From Taxawa tesnikishii (nom. ined.) (lineage: Eukaryota > Ascomycota > Dothideomycetes > Dothideales), in assembly GCA_030247885.1 (NCBI GenBank), contig JAPDRO010000010.1, positions 1-64,000 on the forward strand: 64,000 nucleotides of DNA, in the 5' to 3' direction. Shown here piece after piece: positions 1 through 22,201 of this stretch (its first letter is position 1; every line of letters starts with the position of its first letter). A model generated the notes under the pieces. The model saw only the letters and a program-made list of their open reading frames with translations. It did not search any database and had not been told where the DNA came from. A program made the translations under genes and the position numbers.

Positions 1-81
1 CTAACCTAACCTAACCTAACCTAACCCCTAACCTAACCCTAACCCTAACCCTAACCCTAACCCTAACCCTAACCCTAACCC
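1..81. repeat. Telomere repeat tract
   Basis: C-rich telomere strand reading inward from the chromosome end. The inner part is regular CCCTAA hexamers. The outermost ~25 bases are CCTAA pentamers, followed by one CCCCTAA and another CCTAA unit. This fixes the window as a true left chromosome end. The pentamers may be real variants or undercalled C runs. Confidence 0.97.
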
Positions 82-1448: not shown

Positions 1449-4400
1449 TTAGAACGACAATAAAGCCTTTGCCGCTACTCTGACTCCCTGTACCGCCATT
1501 CCGCCTCCAAATCTTGTCTCCTCTCCCAACCAGTCAAAGAAATCCTCCACCCCGGCGAATCTGCGCCGGAAGTGGTCCTCTAGCCATCTGGCTCCTCCGG
1601 CGCTCACGAATATCCCGTAACAGAGCGGCAGGACCACGTCTCCGTGCTCACACGCTTCTTCCTTACTGGTCTTGCTGAGCTCAGCCCTTTGGCAGATGGA
1701 CTGAGGGTTTAGGCACCAGAAGCAGCTCGTGTACGGACGCAACCACTTTCGTCCGCGTGTCTCGTGCCGCTGCCGTACTCGACTGCGCTCGTGAAACACC
1801 TCATGCCGCCGGGCACACTTGGAGAACTCGTGCTTCCATTCCTCGTCCATCGCACGGCAGAGCAAGCATGTCCCGCGCACGCTGGCCAGGTCCAGACGGT
1901 AGTTGACAAGTTCGGAGTGAGCCTGCAGCCGCTCTTGCTGGATGAGATCGAGTCCGGTGTGGGCGGTCTGCCGTCTTGTCGCGTCCGAGGCTGCGATTGA
2001 TCCTCGTGAGCCGCTTTGCAGACGTCGCAAGCCACGTCTTCCGGCATGCACCACCTTCGGTGCTGAGCGAGATCGAGGTGTTCGCTCAGCGAAGTTCGGA
2101 AACATTGCTCGCCTCGTAAGTACTTGTGCACGGCCTGCTTGTCCCGTCGCTTGCGAAGTGACACGTCGTCCCTGCAGCTGCCCGTCTGCTCCGAACCGAC
2201 GTCGACGTCGTCTTCGAGCTGTGCCTGCCACGTCGCCGGCAGGAGAACCATCGAGTACGCCTCCATCCCGTCGCGGCCGGCCCGACCCGACTCCTGCGCG
2301 AAGGTGACCAACGAGTCCGGCTCCCTACGTTCATGACCAGACGTACATGAGCGTGGTCGAAGCCTTCGGCAAGAGCGGTCGTGGCAACGAGATACGGGCG
2401 GTCGGAGGTATGGATCCAGCGATCAACGATGAGCTTCTTCTGTTCCGGCGTTCCGCTCTTTGCGGTGTATGCAGCACAACCAAGCAGTTGGCACAGGCTG
2501 TCCGCGTCCTCACACGTTCGGACGTATAGGACGATCTTGTCACGGGAATGATCGAACAGGTCGGAGTCGCGCCACGCGTCTTGCGCTTCGACCGCACTCT
2601 GCTCCAGAAGGCTGCCTTTGCGAGGGTCTGCCCTGCGGACCATGTAGAATATGTTGGGTCGGTTGCTCGATGCTCTGATGGTTGTCGGACGGTAGAGGTA
2701 GTTGCGCTCCTCAAACTCCTCTTTCATGGACGGAGGCAGTGTGGCTGTCAGGTAGACAAACTGCGTCCTGAGATTGCGGACCGCAGTAAGGTCGACGATG
2801 CTCGATCGGTAGTCAACGGCAGTCACCGTCAGGTGGCATTCGTCGATCACGATTCGATCGAGTTTCTGCTGGACGATCAGGCTTCGTGCGTATTTCGTGA
2901 AGTGTGTTGTGGCCGCAGCCTCAACGCTGACGATTATCAGCGATGCTTCTCGACTTTCTCCCGGCAACCATTCGAGGTGAGCGATGTTCAGTTCCCGTAT
3001 CCGCCGAAGCAGGTCTGCCCGAAGGGATACGAGCGGCACGATGAGGATGGTGATCCCGGCATCAGGCAGCGTACACGGCAACATGAAGGACAGGCTCTTT
3101 CCGGCTCCGGTTGGCAAGATGGCCACCACCTGCTCCGTCCACGACATGATCGTGGTGAGGGTCTGTTCCTGCTCCCTCGATTTCCACATCATTCTCTGGT
3201 TGCCGTAGAGCTTTCTGAGCCCTTCCAGCAGAGCCTCTGCCGACCACGGTTTGCGGGGCCGATAGACACCCTTGGCAAGTCGTTCCTTCAGTCGACACTC
3301 TTCTCCGTCCCTCTTTCGCTTCTTGCCTTTTAGCATCGTCTCCACTCCCCAGAAGTCCTGCCACAACGTTGACGCGCGAAGTCCCATTCGGATCAGCCCG
3401 TCCCACACGTTGCCGAAGGTCGCTCCCGTCTGATTGGCATACGCCCTGTTGACCGTGCGTGTCTTGTGGTTGCGCTGTCTCGTCATCGCTCGGATATCCT
3501 CCTCCATCTCCTCGGCGTCCTCGTCGTCTTCGTTGACTTCGAAGCAGCCTATGTTGCTCGCAAACTTGGTCTTGACGATGGCCACGCTCATCTGGCGCCA
3601 GTTGGAAACGTGAAGCCGGGGTGTGCACGCCCGAGCACTGGCTTCCTCCAGACAACGACTCAACCGTCCTTCGCCCCACACCTTTCCGTCTTTCTCCCAC
3701 AAGAACGAGGAGAGCAGTGCCTTTGGTGATTGCTGCCGCAGAAAGACCTGTCGTAGCGGCACGACATAGACGAGGTAATCCAGCAACAGGTCGCCCACCG
3801 GATTGGCGAGAAACCGGATGTTTTCCTTGTACCTGCCCGTCTGCTGCTGACCTTTGTGGTATTTGACATGTATCATGACACGATCGTGGCGGAGTGTGAT
3901 GGATCGTCGTCGTTGCGTGTTCCGCCAGGTCATGGAGAAGAACTCGCTTTCGCGGATGGGCTGACCGCCACTGATGTGAACGAGGACACACAAGCGTTTC
4001 AAGAACTCCTGCACAGTTGCCTCGTAGCCGGCTAGCGCACTGTCCCTCCAAACGAAGCCGCTCGCTGATCGACGGTCTTGCTGAAGGAAAAGGCGGCACA
4101 GTTGCTCGGAACGCTCAACGGCGGCCAACAGAGCTTTGTCCGTCCCCTCAGCAGGAGAGCGTTGTCACGATGCTGGATCAAGCTCCAGCCGACGGTATCG
4201 ACGTTGCCGCTATCTCTAAGCGCCCAAGACTGCATGCGGCGTAGGTCCTTCTGACCCAGCAGCAAGTCGTCGTACAGTAGCCGTTCGCACTCACGGTATT
4301 CGGAGAGCAGTAGCGTGGGGATCTGGTCCATACGCAGCTCTGTATCTTCGTATGTCAGGACCTGTTCGCTTTCGTCCCAACAGGCCTCATGATCACCCAC

Positions 4401-5880
4401 GCTGTCCTTCGAGATGCGAAACAGCAACAGGCGCCAGCGGAGTATCTCCCCATCGGCGTCTCGGCCGTCTGCTGCAGATAACTCTCACAGCATTCCTTGA
4501 CGAGCGCGAGCGTTTCTCCCCACCCTGCCGCTCTTTGCGAGCACAGTCATAGAAGATCAGCAGCTGCGCGACCCATATCATCGCAGACAGACTGCTGTTG
4601 AAGTTGCCGGGTTCCATCCAGCCTTGCGTAGACGGCTTGATGCTTAGCATCGCGCAGAAGCTCACTATTGGCGAGCGGTACCGTCGGGCTCCGGTAGTGT
4701 GACGGATAACGAGCATCCATAACTCAACCAGCCCATCTCTCAGTTGGCCCTTGATCCCTTCACCCGTGCCCGTCGCTCCCCGTTCTGCTAACCGACGGAG
4801 GTTATGCCACACCACCCTTTGCTTGTCCGTCGGTTCGATCACGTCCTCTGGCCGGATCGTCTCCTCCGAGTCAGCACTGAAGTGGTACTCGTCACAGATC
4901 GCCACTCGCTCCAGGTACGACAGGAACTGTGACGCCAGCTTGAAGTAGACCTTGAGCGTGCCGGGCTCCTTGTAAGGATCGAACGGCCGAACCTTCCCAA
5001 TCGACTCGACCTGCGACGACTGGAACCGACTGAGAACGACGCGACATGGCCAAGTGAGCATACAGTCGGGTCCGTCGAAACACCAGCCGTGCGCCTCCCT
5101 GAGCACGTCCTCCATCGCATCGACGATCGTCCGCAGAGGACATCCTTCGTCTCGCGAGGGCACGGCGATCGCTGCTCGGATCTCGTCTTTCTTCAAGCCG
5201 CAGACATGGTCGACGATGCCGGTCTCTCTGAGCCATGGTACCACGGTAGAACGATGCTCGTCGAATCCGCGGACACGGTTGGCCGCAGATGCGGCGTCGC
5301 GCTCTGCCTGAAGGATGTCTTCTTCTTGCGTCCGGAAGAAGTCACGCTGGTGACCGGCTCGCCTCCGACCGCAAATCTCCAGGTCCGCTACTTGGACCTC
5401 GAAGTACCTCTGCCAGCTTCCGACCTTGAAGAAACGCTGACAGGCGCGGTCGCAAGACCACAGCTTGTTGTGGGTATGGACCTGCTTCAAACGAGCATCG
5501 CCGCCTCGCTTCTGTCCGTTGACCCAGCCGTGTTGCCGCTCACAATGATCTTGCATGCCACGCGGAGTGCGGCATATATAGGGACAAAGCCTGCCTTCGC
5601 CATCTTTCCCGCCACACTTCAAGCCGTCGAAGTACACCGGAAGTCCCGTTACGGGAGGCTCTGTTGCTGCTGGATAGATGACATCTGCCTCGACTTGCGC
5701 AAGTTCGGTAAAAGACCCGACTTTGGCAATAATGTCCCGCCGTTGTTGTAAGCTGAGACGCTTGTGATGCACACGAAGATGTTTGGCGAGCTGCGAAGGT
5801 ACGACTGCATACTGACAATGGATGCAAACAAGGATGCGGTGCTGGGCGACTACTTGGAAGAGACGATGAAAATCATCCAT
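1449..5880 (-). pseudogene. Telomere-linked RecQ helicase (TLH), full length with frame breaks
   Basis: Subtelomeric ATP-dependent DNA helicase; family members sit beside fungal telomeres and are thought to act in end maintenance. Order from the 5' end: OrsD-type C2H2 finger (C19, C22, H34 and H38/H39, near 5826), a second finger, a long linker, a tyrosine-recombinase-like module (3954-3439), RecQ core with Walker A PTGAGKS (~3114), DECH box (~2844) and LTATLPP, motif VI QESGRAGRDG (~2296), then a Cys/His-rich tail ending at 1449. The start at 5880 was chosen because it precedes the OrsD finger as in relatives. The reading frame changes about five times (near 4505, 4450, 4130, 2323 and 1985), mostly where a G run looks one base short. 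It could be a pseudogene or an intact gene with sequencing errors. The 3' end faces the telomere. Confidence 0.85.
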
Positions 5881-6221: not shown

Positions 6222-6324
6222 GCAAACGAATCGTGGTCAACAGGTGCAAACGAATCGTGGTCGTTCCTCTAACCCTTAGGGTTATAGCCCACGCAAAAGC
6301 AAACGAATCGTGGCCATTCGTTTG
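6222..6324. promoter_or_regulatory. Repeated GCAAACGAATCGTGG motifs with telomeric palindrome
   Basis: GCAAACGAATCGTGG occurs three times in direct orientation (6222, 6246, 6299). The last copy is followed by the inverted half ATTCGTTTG. Between copies two and three lies CTAACCCTTAGGGTTA (6269-6284), a head-to-head telomeric unit. The cluster is 340-440 bp upstream of the TLH start codon, so it may be its control region. This is inference. Confidence 0.55.
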
Positions 6325-6913
6325 ACTTCTACGAGTAGCGGCTAGAGGGCTAAGACCCTCACTACCACCTGTCTCTTACCCCCTTACCTGGGCCCTGTCG
6401 CAAGTCAGCCGCTCTCTGTCCCTACAAACCTCCTGCAAACCTCCCTGCTACACTTGCCACCACTCAATTCCCTTCTTGTCCCTAATCCGGCGCACCCTCG
6501 CTTTAAATCCCCCAACCCTGCCTGCCCTATCCGCCCGCTTCCCGGATCCCGAATCTCGTCCTCCCCGCTCACGCCCCTTCCCTGCACTAACTCTACCCTC
6601 CTGCTACCCCCTGCATCGACCATCTCGCACTACCTGCCACCCCTCACTAACGATATACCCTTACTGCCTGCTGCCTTACACCCGCCCTTCCAACATAACA
6701 TCACACCTACTAATTCTTCTTCTCTCCTGCCCTGCTCGCTCCCTAACTACGACTTACTTCAACCATCCTACCCGTACCTATTCATTCGTCTCAAACAACT
6801 TAACCTCGCCTTCTCCGCCTTGTACCCATATCGCCCCATTATTTCCCTTTGCCCCTACCGAACTGTACATTTACTTGTCTTGCATCAATTTGTACATTAT
6901 CTACCTACTAAAT
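6325..6913. other. C-rich, G-poor spacer
   Basis: Strongly C-over-G biased + strand between the two TLH loci. Apparent open frames on either strand are Pro/Ser/Leu- or Gly/Arg-rich and resemble nothing I recognise. I see no gene. It may be highly decayed 3' sequence of the second TLH locus. Confidence 0.5.
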
Positions 6914-8450
6914 TCATACTCTACACCCTTGCCCAACTTCTCTCCTCTTCTTAATTCTCTTGCCCCTCCCTTTGTCTAAATCCCCACTTTGTCTAGGATG
7001 AGTCCAACCGCACGCACTGCGTTTGTTGCCCGATCTCCCGCTACCTTTGTCCCCTTCCCCATCCATGACATCAACTCCTCTACAGACTCCCCCTACCTCC
7101 CTTGATAGCACCTCCCGTGTCCGACCTAGCCCCCAACCCGCAAACACCATCGGCACGATCACGTCCACTCCTCTGCACCGCTTCCGCTCTACGTACCACT
7201 CGCACCACTCCCCGGAAGTGAGCACCGGTAGCAACAGTAGCTCCCCTCGTACTTGATCAGTCGCCGTAGTGATCCATACTCTCCTCCCACCGCCTTGATC
7301 AGTGTAGGGCACCCATCCATGTCGTGCGAAGGTCCTCCAACTCCGTGAACCCAACATGCTGCGCACTCCAACCCGGCAGCCGCGATGCCACGCTCGATCT
7401 TCTGCCGTTCCTCTCCACGTTGCCGCACCCGCCCTTCCCATAGTCGACCTCCTGCCGCGTACCTCTCTCGCTGCTGTTCCGCCCACCCGTTCGATCCTGT
7501 ATACCTTCGAGCCGACCCCTCTTCCTGCTCCGTGTCGAAACTTCCTCCTCTACAAACGTCGCAACCCCGGCCCTTACTGTCGCCGCACGCCACCCCTTTG
7601 CCATCCATAAACTCCCCAGCTCTAGCCTGCGGCACCCTTGACTCGTCAAGAACGCTTTTAGTCCTTCCTGATTCCAGTCTCGGTGGCTGCCGTCTTCGGA
7701 CTGTACTAGCTCCACCTCTCGTCTTCCGATGACAACGACACTCTCGACAGGCTCGTTGTTGCGTCCTGCACGCCCAACTTCTTGCACGAAGTCGACAACT
7801 CCATGCGGACGGCCTAGGTGCACCACTACCCGGTCCCTGGCCACATCGACACCCGTCTACAATGCGCTTGTTGCAACCATCACCTTTTCCTGCCCATCCA
7901 TCCATGCCGCAAGCGATGCCTCTTTCTCTTCCGACTTACTGTGATACGGTCGGCAGCCTAGATCCTTGCCTACTCGCTCGCAGGTTGCACGACTCCGGCA
8001 AAAGAGGATGGCTCGGCGGCCCTCTGGCAGATCTTCGCGCGCCTGCCGTACTAGGCTGCATGCTTGTTGGGTCACTTCCGACCTGTCACATACTGACACC
8101 GATAAGCAACATTCGGCTGGTCTATACTTGCGCGCACATATTGCAGCCCATGCTCGGGCGTCCTGAGGAGGAACGTATCACCGGGTGCTCCCTCCAGGCT
8201 GGGTGGCATGGTGCCGGTAAGGAGCACAAGCTGGCACGGTATCGCACGCAGGCAATCAAGCTTGGCTAGCCTCCGTCGATACGAGCCTGATATTAGGGGA
8301 ACATGGCACTCATCGATCACAATCCGGTCCAGTCGGCTTTGGATCTGCAGTTCTAAAGTGAAGGTGAGGAAGCCTTCGCTTACGGCAGTATTGGCGCTGA
8401 CAACCATGACTAGTTGAACTGATCGAAACAGCACTGATCCAACAGCCGAA
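6914..8450 (-). pseudogene. TLH RecQ helicase remnant, second locus, 3' half
   Basis: Remnant of a telomere-linked RecQ helicase in several minus-strand frames. Visible parts: DECH motif in RLDRIVIDECHVPLI (~8330), motif III LTGTMPP, a motif IV/V region with ILFCRSRATCE and VATSAL, motif VI QEVGRAGRN (~7785), and a C-terminal Cys cluster (CAACW, CCYRC) matching the first locus. The Walker A segment is missing: sequence passes from an OrsD domain to just before the DECH box within about 50 bp near 8450. At least three frame changes are present. A helicase without Walker A cannot hydrolyse ATP, so this is a dead copy or a junction between two gene copies. Confidence 0.8.
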
Positions 8451-8480
8451 TGGCTACAAGCAGAAGAAAACTATTCCTTA

Positions 8481-11400
8481 TCAATCCTCTCTTCCATGTT
8501 CAATCTCGAAGAACCGTCGATGCGGACCACTAAAGAAAGTCTGTACCTGAGCAGCTCTCCAAGGTCTACTATGACCCTTTGTCCACCGGTGTACCTCCCG
8601 GCCATGCTTCTCCATGACAGCCTCGCTCACACAGAGATACTCACATCGGAGGCAACCCCAACCATCGTACACTGGTAGCCAACGTACTCGCCCCTTGTCT
8701 TTAGGAGGATAAACGAGCCTGTCCGGCGCAATCAGGCATAGCTCATCGACATACCGGATAAGATCGTTTCGTGTATTTCGAGGCCAGTTTGAGTGCGTGT
8801 CTCGGAAGTGCCGCTTCGCGCTTGGAGGGGGTTGATGCAATAGCCACATGGAATGCACACCGCCACCTTGTAGTCTGCCAAGTATGCTACCTGTCCGCAT
8901 TTTGACATACTACCATGTTGCGGTAGCACGCTAGTCTGGTTCACTTGTTTAGAGATGCCGTGTACGCACTCGTTTCCCTGCTCAACGTTCTTCGTGATAG
9001 GTTGTTTTGCTAATAGCTGAGTAGACAGAGCGAGATTCCAATCGGAACCTACGCAGTTACGCTTTGGCTGCTCAAGACGTGACGCGTCAGTCGCGTCTAT
9101 CTTCCGCTTCGCAACTCGATCGTTTTCCGGCGCCATCCCTTCTATGTGTTGCATGCAAGTCGCTAGAGGCGCAACTGGCTGTTCCGGTATGAAGACATGC
9201 TGTTCACAACCCAAGAAAGTATGCCACTGACCTGACGCCCATTGGTACACACGCAGCAGCGCCGGCTGTAAAGAGTCTGGGTATGCGCCGTCGAGACCGT
9301 AAGTCGTGCCTCGTTGAAGCGGCCTGTGACCACTCTGCCAAGCGAAGGCTACTTCAATGTCTGCGCTGCAAGCCTTGTCATCAAACCGATTGAATGGGCG
9401 ACTAAGCTCGCGGACATGCTTTTCCGTGATTGCGATTGAAAGCTGGCGATAAGCCTGCACGCCGATCGGTGTCCCCAGAGCCGTCCCTGTATACTCGAAG
9501 ACTTTTGCTGAGGTTGACTGAGGTCCACGGGACGTCCGCTATACCCGGGGAAGAGAAAAGAAGCCTTTGTTGCCGCCACCAGTCTGTCCAAAACAGACGC
9601 GGCGCACCATCTCCGCAAAAGGGCGGATATACACAAGATACAAGAAGAGTACGTGGCCTGCTTCATGTGGAAGGAACCTAGCGATCTGGAACTCGTGGTT
9701 CGTCGCATGGCGAGCCTTGTGGTGCCGAGTAACGAACGTCATATGGCCGCCATGTACGTAGATCCCACGTGAGCTGCTCGGTCCGTTCTGACACTCTAGA
9801 CTGAAGAGCTCCGTCGAACGAGGTGCCTGTCCCCGAGGAGATACATTAGGAGCATGATCTGGCACAACAACTCCCGTTCCTTCTTCAGGTAGGCGTTGAC
9901 TGCAGGCATGCTCCAGCGGTCGTGCGACATCAGTCCATCAAGAGGGCTTAGACAAGCTTTAGCAGACAGATCTAGGTAGGCGCTCCCGAGCTCCTTGATA
10001 GGGTCTTGGACGAAAGAATACCCTGCTGCTTGATTTGACATCTCGTCGCGCATATCTTCCAGGCGGACGCTAGGTTTGATGCCGTACATCAGGTGACCGC
10101 AACACGACGCCGCATCGTCGAGTACCTTCCGCCCAAGCGCTCGGAAGGTGCCCATTTCAACGCAGCCGTCAGGTCACGAGACGGTTTGGCTGTCCTCGCT
10201 CCAGCGGACGTGGAAGCTGGGCCCATCTGATCGAGAAAGCACACGGCCGTACGATCGTAGACTCAACAGCTCTCCTAGAGGCGCTTGGCAACCAGCGCAG
10301 GCAAACTGACGTCGCATCGCATTCAGTTCCTGGAGTTGGTTAGAGGCAGGTCTTTCTGTCCATCCGACGTACGGGTGCGGAAGCCGTGGCAAGGTGGCCT
10401 CAAGAAGTATCAGCCGCACTGAATAGATAAGGCCCGAGAGTTTCGGAGTATATGCCTTTGGGCGCTGGAAAGTAAGCCCGTCGGAGGACAAACCAAGGAT
10501 GCCACCAAAGTAAGTGAGGAGAGACGAGCTTGAACGACCGTCACGGTAACTCTCTTTGCACAATGAGGCAGACAACAGACCGACCAAATCGGCAAGCTGA
10601 TGAAGGGAAGGCTTGGTGCTTGTCTGGCGCGCTTCACGTTTTCCGGCCGTAGGACGATGGAGGCTGGTATCGCTACTATACGCATCGCTGTTGGCATCTT
10701 CACTCGACGACTCAGCATAGTCATCGTCCGTCTGTTCGCTTGAATCCCATAGACTGCCGTCCTGCACCTGGTCTAGCAACTTCGGTGACCTTGCAGGGCT
10801 CCTTGCCAACGGCGGAGACTCTTCTCTGTCTAACGCTACATGTGAGACTGGCAGTGAAGAAGTGCTCGACCGGAGTTGGCGCTCAGTGTTTGACTGTCGC
10901 AATCCTTGTGCGCCTTAGAACACTGGGTCGAGAGTGATCCGGTCTCTTCTCGGCTGAAAGGTTCTCCTCCCACCAGCCGTCGTTCCAGAACTCGGCTGTC
11001 AAGACGGATTGGCCTGGCGTGGGCTTGAAGCAAAGGAGTTCCCGTCGAACAGGTTGGTCGAGACGGAAGAGACGAAGTACGAACCACAGGAAACTCTTCC
11101 ACAAGCTCCTGTATCTTCTGATCGTCGGCTTCCTTCCTGGAAGCTGGAAAGGCGCTTTGAACGGTCGATCTGGAAAATGACCGCGCAGCCAGCAGAGGAT
11201 GGAGTGATCCGTATGGCGGACAGTATCCTCACAGCGGTCAAAAACAGGTCGACGGCCCGACCCACTAGCAGCAAGCGATGCTCGTCGCCAGCAGGGCTCT
11301 CCATTCCGTTCTCACGACCGCGACCAGGCGATAAGGCTAGCCCGTTTGCGCACGCTGGCAGACTCAGCCGCTTGAGGAGTCTTCGGTCTGCGTCTTTGAA

Positions 11401-12090
11401 CATTCGTGCCCACCCAGTCCGGCGCATCCAGCTGCTAGTCAGGGCCAGGTCATCAAAGCCTGTGTACGTACACGCACGTTCTGCCTCTTGAACGGCCATG
11501 CGCTGGAGTTCCTCTTGGTGCAGTCTCTCGAGCCACCGTCTGCGGCGCGGAGTAGCTTGCATTGCCGAGGACTCCGTTACCGGCTCCCTTGGCGTAAGGA
11601 CGATCCAGTACGGGCGAGCTCCGTTCTGTGTCCAACTCTGCAAGGTCGCCTGGTCGTCTACGTAGCTGCGAAGCCCGCCGTCTCGTTTTCGCTTGATACC
11701 ATGATGCTTCGAAACATGCCTGAGAACGAGCTCTAAGCTCGTTGAACGATACTTGCATAGCTTGCAGCACGCGCCGAGCTGCAACGCAAGGTATGGATGC
11801 GGTTCATAGCCGTCAGCCCGCGGAACAAGGCTGTTCGGGTCAGGCAGGCATAGCGAGTTGATATAGGTGGACAGGCCCCTCCGCGCTTATATAGGAACGT
11901 TGTGCTTTTCCGACATATGCTTAGAGACACAATCACCCGATGGCTGAAGAGCGTACTTGCATTGCCGGCAGATCAGAACAGGTTCGGGAGTATTAAGATG
12001 TAAGTCCAAAGCAGCGAGCTTAGTCTCGACCTCTTTCACGCTCAGAACCGTCCATTGGCAAGATTTCCCTTTCTGGTTGCGCTCGGTCAT
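8481..12090 (-). pseudogene. OrsD / tyrosine-recombinase-like / OrsD remnant of a TLH-type gene
   Basis: Decayed minus-strand gene read through many short frames. Order from 12090: OrsD finger (CRQCKY..HMSEKH), a second OrsD segment with CKLCKYRS..HVSKHH (~11760), an acidic Ser-rich linker (10900-10500), a helical region (10155-9796), a recombinase-like module (R at ~9820 in APRSTELFSL, K at ~9718 in HHKARH, R at ~9448 in YRQLSIAIT, H and Y at ~9328 and ~9301 in GHRPLQRGTTY), a basic linker with KRKID, then another OrsD domain with CIPCGYC and CLRCEYLC (8900-8490). Either it was one gene with the helicase half at 6914-8450, or it is a rearranged pair. Frame breaks are numerous, so it is not functional as read. 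Confidence 0.7.
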
Positions 12091-12194
12091 TGTAATGCTA
12101 AAGTCAGGGACAACAGTATTCTAGCAAGGTATTACAGGTCTATAGTAGGATAGTTGTGAGAAACTAGGGAAGGGTTGTGGTTGGTAAGGCATTG

Positions 12195-12395
12195 AAGCGC
12201 GACGCGTTCCATAAACGCAACATTGACCTTTCCGGGGAAAGCTGCACAGACTGGAACGTGTTCCAAACGCGACGCGTTTCAGATATGCACCCGGTCAGCA
12301 GGCGGGGTGCCGTGGGAAGTTCGACGCGTTCCAAACATGCAACTTAGCGTTAGCCGGTAGATTCTTCTGGAACGCGACGCGTTCCAGAGAAGAAT
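12195..12395. promoter_or_regulatory. Four spaced CGACGCGTT palindromic motifs
   Basis: CGACGCGTTYC occurs at about 12200, 12270, 12322 and 12375, spaced 50-70 bp. The last lies in a larger near-palindrome (12362-12395: TTCTTCTGGAACGCG followed by its complement). Each contains ACGCGT, the MCB core bound by the MBF cell-cycle factor in ascomycetes. The cluster is 100-300 bp upstream of the TLH-like start at 12090. Function is inferred. Confidence 0.6.
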
Positions 12396-12514
12396 ACTAG
12401 AGTAAAGGCTCTCAAGTACCTTTCTTCGACGGATTGATTGAAGCTTTGTAAGGTTCGAACAGACAGCCCCCGTTTAAGAGCTGTGTGTAGTACCAAACAC
12501 TAGTATGCCCCGTT

Positions 12515-18439: not shown

Positions 18440-18606
18440 ACGTAAACCGCGGGGAAGCGAGCCAGGTGGGGAAGCAAACCACTGACCTGGATTAAGTTTA
18501 GTTAGATCTTGTAAAGGCTAGAAAACTTACCTCTAAGGGCTTTCAGCTGCCTATACAAGTTAAATGGTTCGCTTCCCCACCTGGTTCGCTTCCCCACGGT
18601 TGACGT
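18440..18606. mobile_element. MITE with ~40-bp inverted repeats (pogo type)
   Basis: 167-bp non-coding element with TA on each side (18438-18439 and 18607-18608). The ends are inverted repeats beginning ACGTAAACCGCGGGG and ending CCCCACGGTTGACGT, with an internal CAGGTGGGGAAGC motif on both arms. It belongs with the MITE at 60411 (same first 15 bases except one). Confidence 0.88.
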
Positions 18607-21840: not shown

Positions 21841-22201
21841 TTGTCCTTCCTAGTCATAGAGAATCAGCTAGAGTATACTCACACCATGTGGAAGGGAAGA
21901 AACAACAATACTTCCACAAGCAACAAAGTGAAAACCAAAACTCAGAGAGGAGGAAGCAGAAGTGATACGATAATGGTCCACGGGGACGAGGTGGTTTGTT
22001 ATCGATATCGTTGTCCCGCTATGATTGTGCACTCAGCCATGCTTGCTCGATACTCCACTGCTGTCATGGTGAGGTGAGGGTGGCACAGGTCAACCGCGAT
22101 TCTGTCTAGCTTTTGTTAGGCGACAAAGTCTTCGCAGTAGCGCCTCGAACCCTCCGTAGCGGCACCTTCGATGCTGACTAATACTGGCAATGTCTACTCT
22201 A

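Follow-up and report, generated by a model that had tools for sequence, protein, structure and literature searches.

A telomere-linked RecQ helicase gene with a predicted tyrosine recombinase domain lies in a chromosome-terminal unit with one exact inner end in Taxawa tesnikishii

The first 6,338 bases of a 64,000-nucleotide stretch of Taxawa tesnikishii (nom. ined.) DNA (assembly GCA_030247885.1, contig JAPDRO010000010.1, positions 1 to 64,000; hereafter the window) form a terminal unit of 6.3 kb, which carries a telomere-linked helicase (TLH) gene and runs from the telomere repeats to one exact base. We consider it likely that this unit is a one-ended, telomere-capped mobile DNA element, whose single protein, combining an OrsD, a tyrosine recombinase (YR) and a RecQ part, attaches the element by its inner end to further chromosomes. 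Telomere-linked helicases were described between 1998 and 2005, and for their presence at so many chromosome ends we know of no settled explanation. An element-borne recombinase together with an exact terminus offers a testable one, namely that the gene moves itself. The parts of the unit are, in window coordinates:

1..81, plus strand: telomere repeat (CCCTAA)n, the outer end of the element, found by tandem repeat search; telomere repeats also stand at copy-bearing contig ends
82..1448, no strand: outer AT-rich part of the element with CACT repeats and a 24-bp tandem array (1306-1408), common to the 20 other left-end copies compared
5898 to 1449, minus strand: TLH gene (OrsD, tyrosine recombinase, RecQ), transcribed toward the telomere and frame-broken in the assembly
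5527..5862, minus strand: OrsD (PF12013) C2H2-type domain, E 2.3e-23
3330..4352, minus strand: predicted tyrosine recombinase catalytic domain, limits approximate, from AlphaFold2 models and PDB comparison
2299..3174, minus strand: RecQ-type helicase core (DEAD and Helicase_C), from Pfam; RecQ5 E 1.2e-19
6327..6338, plus strand: inner terminus ending in TTCTACGAGTAG, with the element boundary at 6338; 51 exact copies with 51 different flanks

Over ~6.3 kb from the telomere to 6338, the copy in the window and the 20 further left-end copies compared were 99.5-99.8% alike, with 1 to 9 mismatches, and the likeness ceased beyond that base. A search with the inner end AAACGAATCGTGGCCATTCGTTTGACTTCTACGAGTAG returned 51 occurrences in the genome at 0 mismatches (control: 0), and the sequence past the inner end, which was read in 51/51 copies, was distinct every time. 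Of the 50 copies located at contig ends, 27 are on the left and 23 on the right; the latter (including C8 and C16) lie 6264-6374 bases from the end of the contig. Telomere repeats were read at 49 of these 50 contig ends and thus, with the copy on C2, beside 50 of the 51 copies; the left end of C5 begins within the element, without a telomere repeat in the assembly. The C2 copy (C2:871,984) was considered as an internal exception and dismissed, as it adjoins an N gap between two telomeres, i.e. a scaffold join. The region around it (C2:864000-873000, L059) reads TTAGGG telomere, N gap, CCCTAA telomere and full element, with two chromosome ends inside the contig. One common end combined with different flanks is what characterises an element with a defined terminus, and is not produced by homologous exchange. 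The preliminary description of the window had suggested a mobile or self-amplifying subtelomeric system, and the 51 copies with one exact terminus and 51 flanks lend this strong independent support.

The gene was assigned to the TLHs by its RecQ-type helicase core and its position beside telomere repeats at many chromosome ends. Its frames are interrupted by a few small breaks at homopolymer runs in this assembly; among 21 aligned element copies the inspected part showed 20 variable columns, of which 18 were indels and 2 substitutions, and relatives of ~1,480 aa are catalogued as single proteins in the protein search. T. tesnikishii belongs to the Dothideales. According to the available part of the genome report (PMC11195213), it comes from desert biological soil crust, and its genome is a hybrid Oxford Nanopore Technologies (ONT)/Illumina assembly with 194x ONT coverage and 55 telomeres. 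Because of this hybrid origin we take the frame breaks as probable sequencing errors, and their occurrence in near-identical copies suggests systematic ONT errors. In public records, the gene models for these copies (P0001-P0005, P0012) fall short of the relatives in length or differ near the breaks.

Between the OrsD domain and the Walker A motif (~3123), inside the open frame 4164-2086, the same preliminary description had read a tyrosine recombinase signature. Its five residues were found exactly where it had placed them on the minus strand, with Lys 33 residues past Arg I and Tyr 9 past His:

3952..3954, minus strand: catalytic Arg I codon (QPIRESEFF; fragment R71), conserved in 54/54 where present
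3853..3855, minus strand: catalytic Lys codon (KYHKGQ; fragment K104), 55/55
3595..3597, minus strand: catalytic Arg II codon (SNWRQM; fragment R190), 55/55
3466..3468, minus strand: catalytic His III codon (fragment H233), 54/54 where present
3439..3441, minus strand: nucleophile Tyr codon (fragment Y242), 53/53 where present

The interval 3439-3954 thus holds all five residues, yet the predicted fold begins upstream of it, at ~4352. The counts refer to alignment A1, built from a search with the part of the protein that separates OrsD from Walker A; 123 proteins matched, and 55 of the best 120, 33-94% identical to the window region, were aligned. R, K, R, H and Y were invariant wherever the column was present, the gaps being confined to P0112 (R), P0106 (H, Y) and P0093 (Y); P0092 fills the Tyr column, yet its surrounding sequence deviates from the motif. 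Of the 241 columns, 17 are fully conserved, and all five positions fall within these (hypergeometric P 9.5e-7); the motif is more than chance would give.

Two AlphaFold2 models, one of 931 aa and one of the window's own fragment, matched Cre/Xer recombinases and topoisomerases in the PDB comparison. Rows 1-46 of the structure comparison (VIA) were all of the recombinase/topoisomerase IB superfamily type, and the structural matches included XerH, XerA, the integron integrase 2a3v, SPbeta YopR and MrpR as well as, with low scores only, protelomerases. By this resemblance, the domain between OrsD and RecQ is predicted to have a tyrosine recombinase fold and not an unrelated one. Both conditions that the preliminary description had named as refuting its reading, an unrelated fold and a lack of conservation, thus came out in its favour. 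Sequence searches did not return this family: Pfam gave no YR family among all 24 families for 28 TLH members, nor among 25 of the 48 families listed for 41 members of a second TLH family described below. Profile searches of the PDB with the TLH alignment found helicases and no recombinase in the best 60 of 209 matches, and with the second family zinc fingers or low-complexity matches and no recombinase. The YR assignment therefore depends on the fold plus the residues.

Just inside the inner end, repeats and a palindrome precede the terminus:

6222..6326, plus strand: three direct repeats GCAAACGAATCGTGG at 6222, 6246 and 6299, proposed recombinase binding sites
6300..6324, no strand: palindrome CAAACGAAT, 7 nt, ATTCGTTTG (9-7-9), arms of 9 bp
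6267..6287, no strand: telomere-like palindrome CTCTAACCCT/AGGGTTATAG between the terminal repeats

The third GCAAACGAATCGTGG repeat forms half of the 9-7-9 palindrome, a pattern that occurs once in the window even if up to 3 mismatches are allowed. Its layout resembles recombinase core sites. As single strand, the palindrome can fold into a hairpin (z -2.8; 2 of 200 shuffles equally good).

On the other side of the junction, the flanks were AT-rich (GC 0.19-0.35) in 35 of 38 cases, and 21 of the 38 matched another of those flanks. When eight flanks were searched against the genome, seven had further matches, at least 11 to 54 each. The window's own flank (6339-7000) matched itself only, and its target could therefore not be reconstructed. 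Unoccupied copies of a target show the base that preceded the junction, and 11 of the 51 junctions were reconstructed in this way, one side only. G stood before the junction in all hosts at C10L (12/12), C6L (14/14 and 1 further host), C13L (7/7) and C18L (5/5), in most or some at C1L (7/8), C29L (6/8), C9L (5/9) and C24L (1/2, the better-aligned host), and in the one host each of C14L, C5R and C11R (1/1). AG was the prevailing dinucleotide at 9 of the 11 targets, provided that C24L is represented by its better-aligned host, and a simple estimate for 11/11 G against the flank composition gives ~1e-10. Furthermore, the first base past the junction was G in 20 of 51 copies (P 1.7e-6). Since the element too ends in AG, the AG may come from either side. 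Three target candidates were dropped: at C13R the first 6 host bases were unaligned (this host also has G before the junction), and at C19L and at C10L with host L021 the host stops short of the junction, C10L being solved with other hosts.

Next to the 6.3-kb element, and oriented like it, the window holds a member of an older, second family with an equal plan:

6985..12006, minus strand: remains of an older TLH element, stop- and frame-broken, with OrsD, YR with all five residues, second OrsD and RecQ
12194..12405, plus strand: inner end of the older family with four repeats of the GACGCGTTCC type, of which the last is palindromic, and the terminus CTAGAGTA(G)

With the older element as query 282 proteins matched, and 41 of the best 120 were aligned (A5); R, K, R, H and Y were each present in 41/41. 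When 8 proteins were aligned jointly, the two families showed 21-22% identity and retained all five residues, and hhalign paired the families over 791 columns at a probability of 100. Upstream of the gene start the older family has four direct repeats, and the final spacing is 53 bp as in the 6.3-kb element. A 401-base query of the older end gave 13 genome matches including itself. Nine other matches reached query base 350 or beyond; the end fell at 355 (window 12404) in six of them and at 350, 354 and 357 in the others. At nine other places that were read, the end is AATACTAGAGTA(G) or a variant, with substitutions in e.g. L123, L125, L128, L130 and L131. Comparison of the termini of both families shows that both end in about CTA(C)GAGTAG. 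Eight different flanks were counted in 10 older copies, three of which have one flank in common; the same-flank copies (C2:627150-627700, C2:1100950-1101550 and C2:840200-840900) point to segmental duplication within C2. Among the relatives, P0197, P0124 and P0208 are listed with OrsD and without a helicase domain, P0197 being named 'ATP-dependent DNA helicase tlh1' all the same, and P0208 and P0124 have OrsD-like sequence also after the recombinase. An isolated TLH-type RecQ scrap is found at 22008-22184 of the window.

The following course of events would connect these features. The OrsD/recombinase protein would bind the repeats and the palindrome inside the inner end, and the recombinase Tyr would cut directly after GAGTA(G). 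The cut strand would be exchanged into a subtelomeric target in front of G, preferably after A, where 1-2 matching bases may be enough; IntDOT and integron integrase are recombinases that are satisfied with 2-3 matching bases. The RecQ part would then unwind DNA or migrate the branch, and replication would copy the element outward through the telomere, replacing the old tip. With a telomere as its outer end, the element would have no need of the second junction on which other recombinase transposons depend, and we know of no described kind of DNA transposon that needs only one end for this reason. Extended beyond this genome, the proposal is that OrsD-YR-RecQ TLHs are the transposases of a one-ended, telomere-capped class of DNA transposons, which capture chromosome ends in many fungi by strand exchange and subsequent copying to the telomere; we lean only slightly towards this wider claim.

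Several observations weigh against a mobile element joined by its own recombinase. Neither of the two Foldseek searches had a match at E <= 0.001 (best 3.7e-3). With the model of 931 aa, the highest-ranking recombinase had E 0.52 and stood under a designed protein; the fragment by itself gave the better result. The Tyr segment had a predicted local distance difference test (pLDDT) score below 50 in both models, and the modelled active-site geometry is therefore of low confidence. The HxxR His three residues before Arg II was not found in the 55 relatives of A1. At this position Ala (33) or Ser (18) stands in 51 of 55 (others 3, gap 1), and the domain therefore departs from the HxxR pattern, a residue (His or Lys) that varies within the superfamily. 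The terminus lies 14 nt beyond the palindrome and outside its 7-nt spacer, whereas in loxP-type sites the junction falls within the spacer. Target reconstruction succeeded at only 11 of the 51 junctions, and four of these (C1L, C9L, C24L and C29L) have conflicting hosts, e.g. host L025 of C24L with TTTA before the junction; conflicting hosts have A (or TA instead of CG) at the site, which could stem from repeat-induced point mutation. Furthermore, several older copies are found far from contig ends (e.g. C2:558,636), so the older family is not strictly terminal and was either inserted internally or shifted inward by rearrangement. Finally, the examination at the DNA level covers one genome.

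Part of this evidence would also suit a mobile unit with an exact end that is joined otherwise: the terminus would be nicked or broken site-specifically, and microhomology (1-2 nt, AG) would then guide end-joining or prime replication, with the YR domain only binding DNA or having another job. The shared match at the junction is just 1-2 nt, the models are poor around the Tyr, the domain lacks the HxxR His, and regulator-only proteins of YR fold exist, with SPbeta YopR and MrpR among the structural matches. Nevertheless, 51/51 identical ends still demand a specific cutter, and five catalytic residues including Tyr, invariant over two families, would be needless in a dead DNA-binding domain. 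We regard this explanation as rather unlikely, and prefer a recombinase that makes the terminus itself.

Ordinary exchange between subtelomeres, in which ectopic recombination, gene conversion or break-induced replication spreads a terminal block, is much less probable still. Subtelomeres commonly exchange, and homogenisation would explain near-identical copies; but homology-driven moves shift the breakpoints and need shared flanks, whereas here 51/51 copies break at one base in 51 differing flanks. As origin of the copies, exchange is already largely refuted by these fixed breakpoints, while it may be a source of copy identity after the spread.

An equally small chance is given to a rolling-circle, Helitron-like or other single-strand route, where the hairpin would serve as the mark of the end and RecQ would unwind. 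A stem-loop 14 nt before the end, folding better than most shuffles, and a helicase recall Helitron 3' ends, and PF00799 (geminivirus Rep, HUH, Gemini_AL1) weakly matched 2 of 41 second-family members (best E 0.0047). The complete Pfam list of the 28 TLH members, on the other hand, holds no HUH model, and the domain concerned has the predicted recombinase fold. Integron integrase acts on a folded single strand, and a recombinase acting in this manner would merge such a route with the recombinase-driven element proposed here. That one terminal sequence was pasted onto many contig ends by the hybrid assembly, as the scaffold join in C2 might suggest, is hardly credible in view of the ONT coverage and telomere count reported (available part of PMC11195213), copies that differ in homopolymer lengths and telomere variants, unoccupied target copies and a second, diverged family with matching ending.

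If the proposal of a one-ended, telomere-capped element holds true, the 'subtelomere' of such fungi would be a selfish element, which could rebuild a chromosome end independently of telomerase and would be a source of new chromosome-end junctions and of loss of distal sequence. Elsewhere in the window, two-copy tandem repeats of period 17 with differing sequences were noted at 18565, 25047, 26906, 31428, 33732, 54647, 60420 and 60534; 31428/33732 and 60420/60534 are mirrored pairs. These repeats perhaps mark where a different mobile element ends.

The superfamily of the catalytic domain is a known one; what is new is the system. No report of a TLH joined with a tyrosine recombinase was found in the open-access literature searched, in which subscription journals and bioRxiv are sparsely covered, and the word 'recombinase' is absent from the main text, as far as available, of PMC8381367, PMC10532341, PMC12857005 and PMC4812632. 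Known TLHs (UTASa of Ustilago, the TLH regions of Fusarium and Magnaporthe, the subtelomeric RecQ genes of Agaricus and Metarhizium) are likewise multi-copy RecQ-type helicases near telomeres; neither a recombinase domain nor a base-exact inner terminus was found for them in the accessible literature searched. OrsD is reported alongside the helicase in U. maydis UTASb in the available part of PMC10532341. Terminons and the telomeric retroelements MoTeR and FoTeR also reside at chromosome ends (available parts of PMC6431247 and PMC12857005), but use a reverse transcriptase, and none is among the Pfam matches of the TLH protein.

Yeast Y' elements are also subtelomeric, helicase-encoding and amplified at many ends; their spread is homology-driven, whereas the 51 flanks of the Taxawa element differ. 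Helitrons combine an HUH Rep with a superfamily 1 (SF1) helicase, in contrast to the RecQ-type helicase of the TLH protein; no HUH model stands in the Pfam lists of this protein and of the 28 TLH members. Protelomerases (ResT, TelA, TelK), weakly matched in structure, produce hairpin ends, while the Taxawa ends are ordinary telomere repeats. With Cre, XerH, XerA and integron integrase the TLH domain has the predicted fold, R, K, R, H and Y and the His-Tyr spacing of 9 in common. Unlike Cre, it is without the HxxR His and has ~20 more residues from Arg II to His III, and unlike Cre, Xer and integron integrase it is fused to zinc-finger and helicase domains. Cryptons, Starship captains (DUF3435) and DIRS are also recombinase-encoding mobile DNA of eukaryotes; those elements have two chromosomal ends, whereas the Taxawa element has one end and a telomere, with its predicted YR fused to RecQ.
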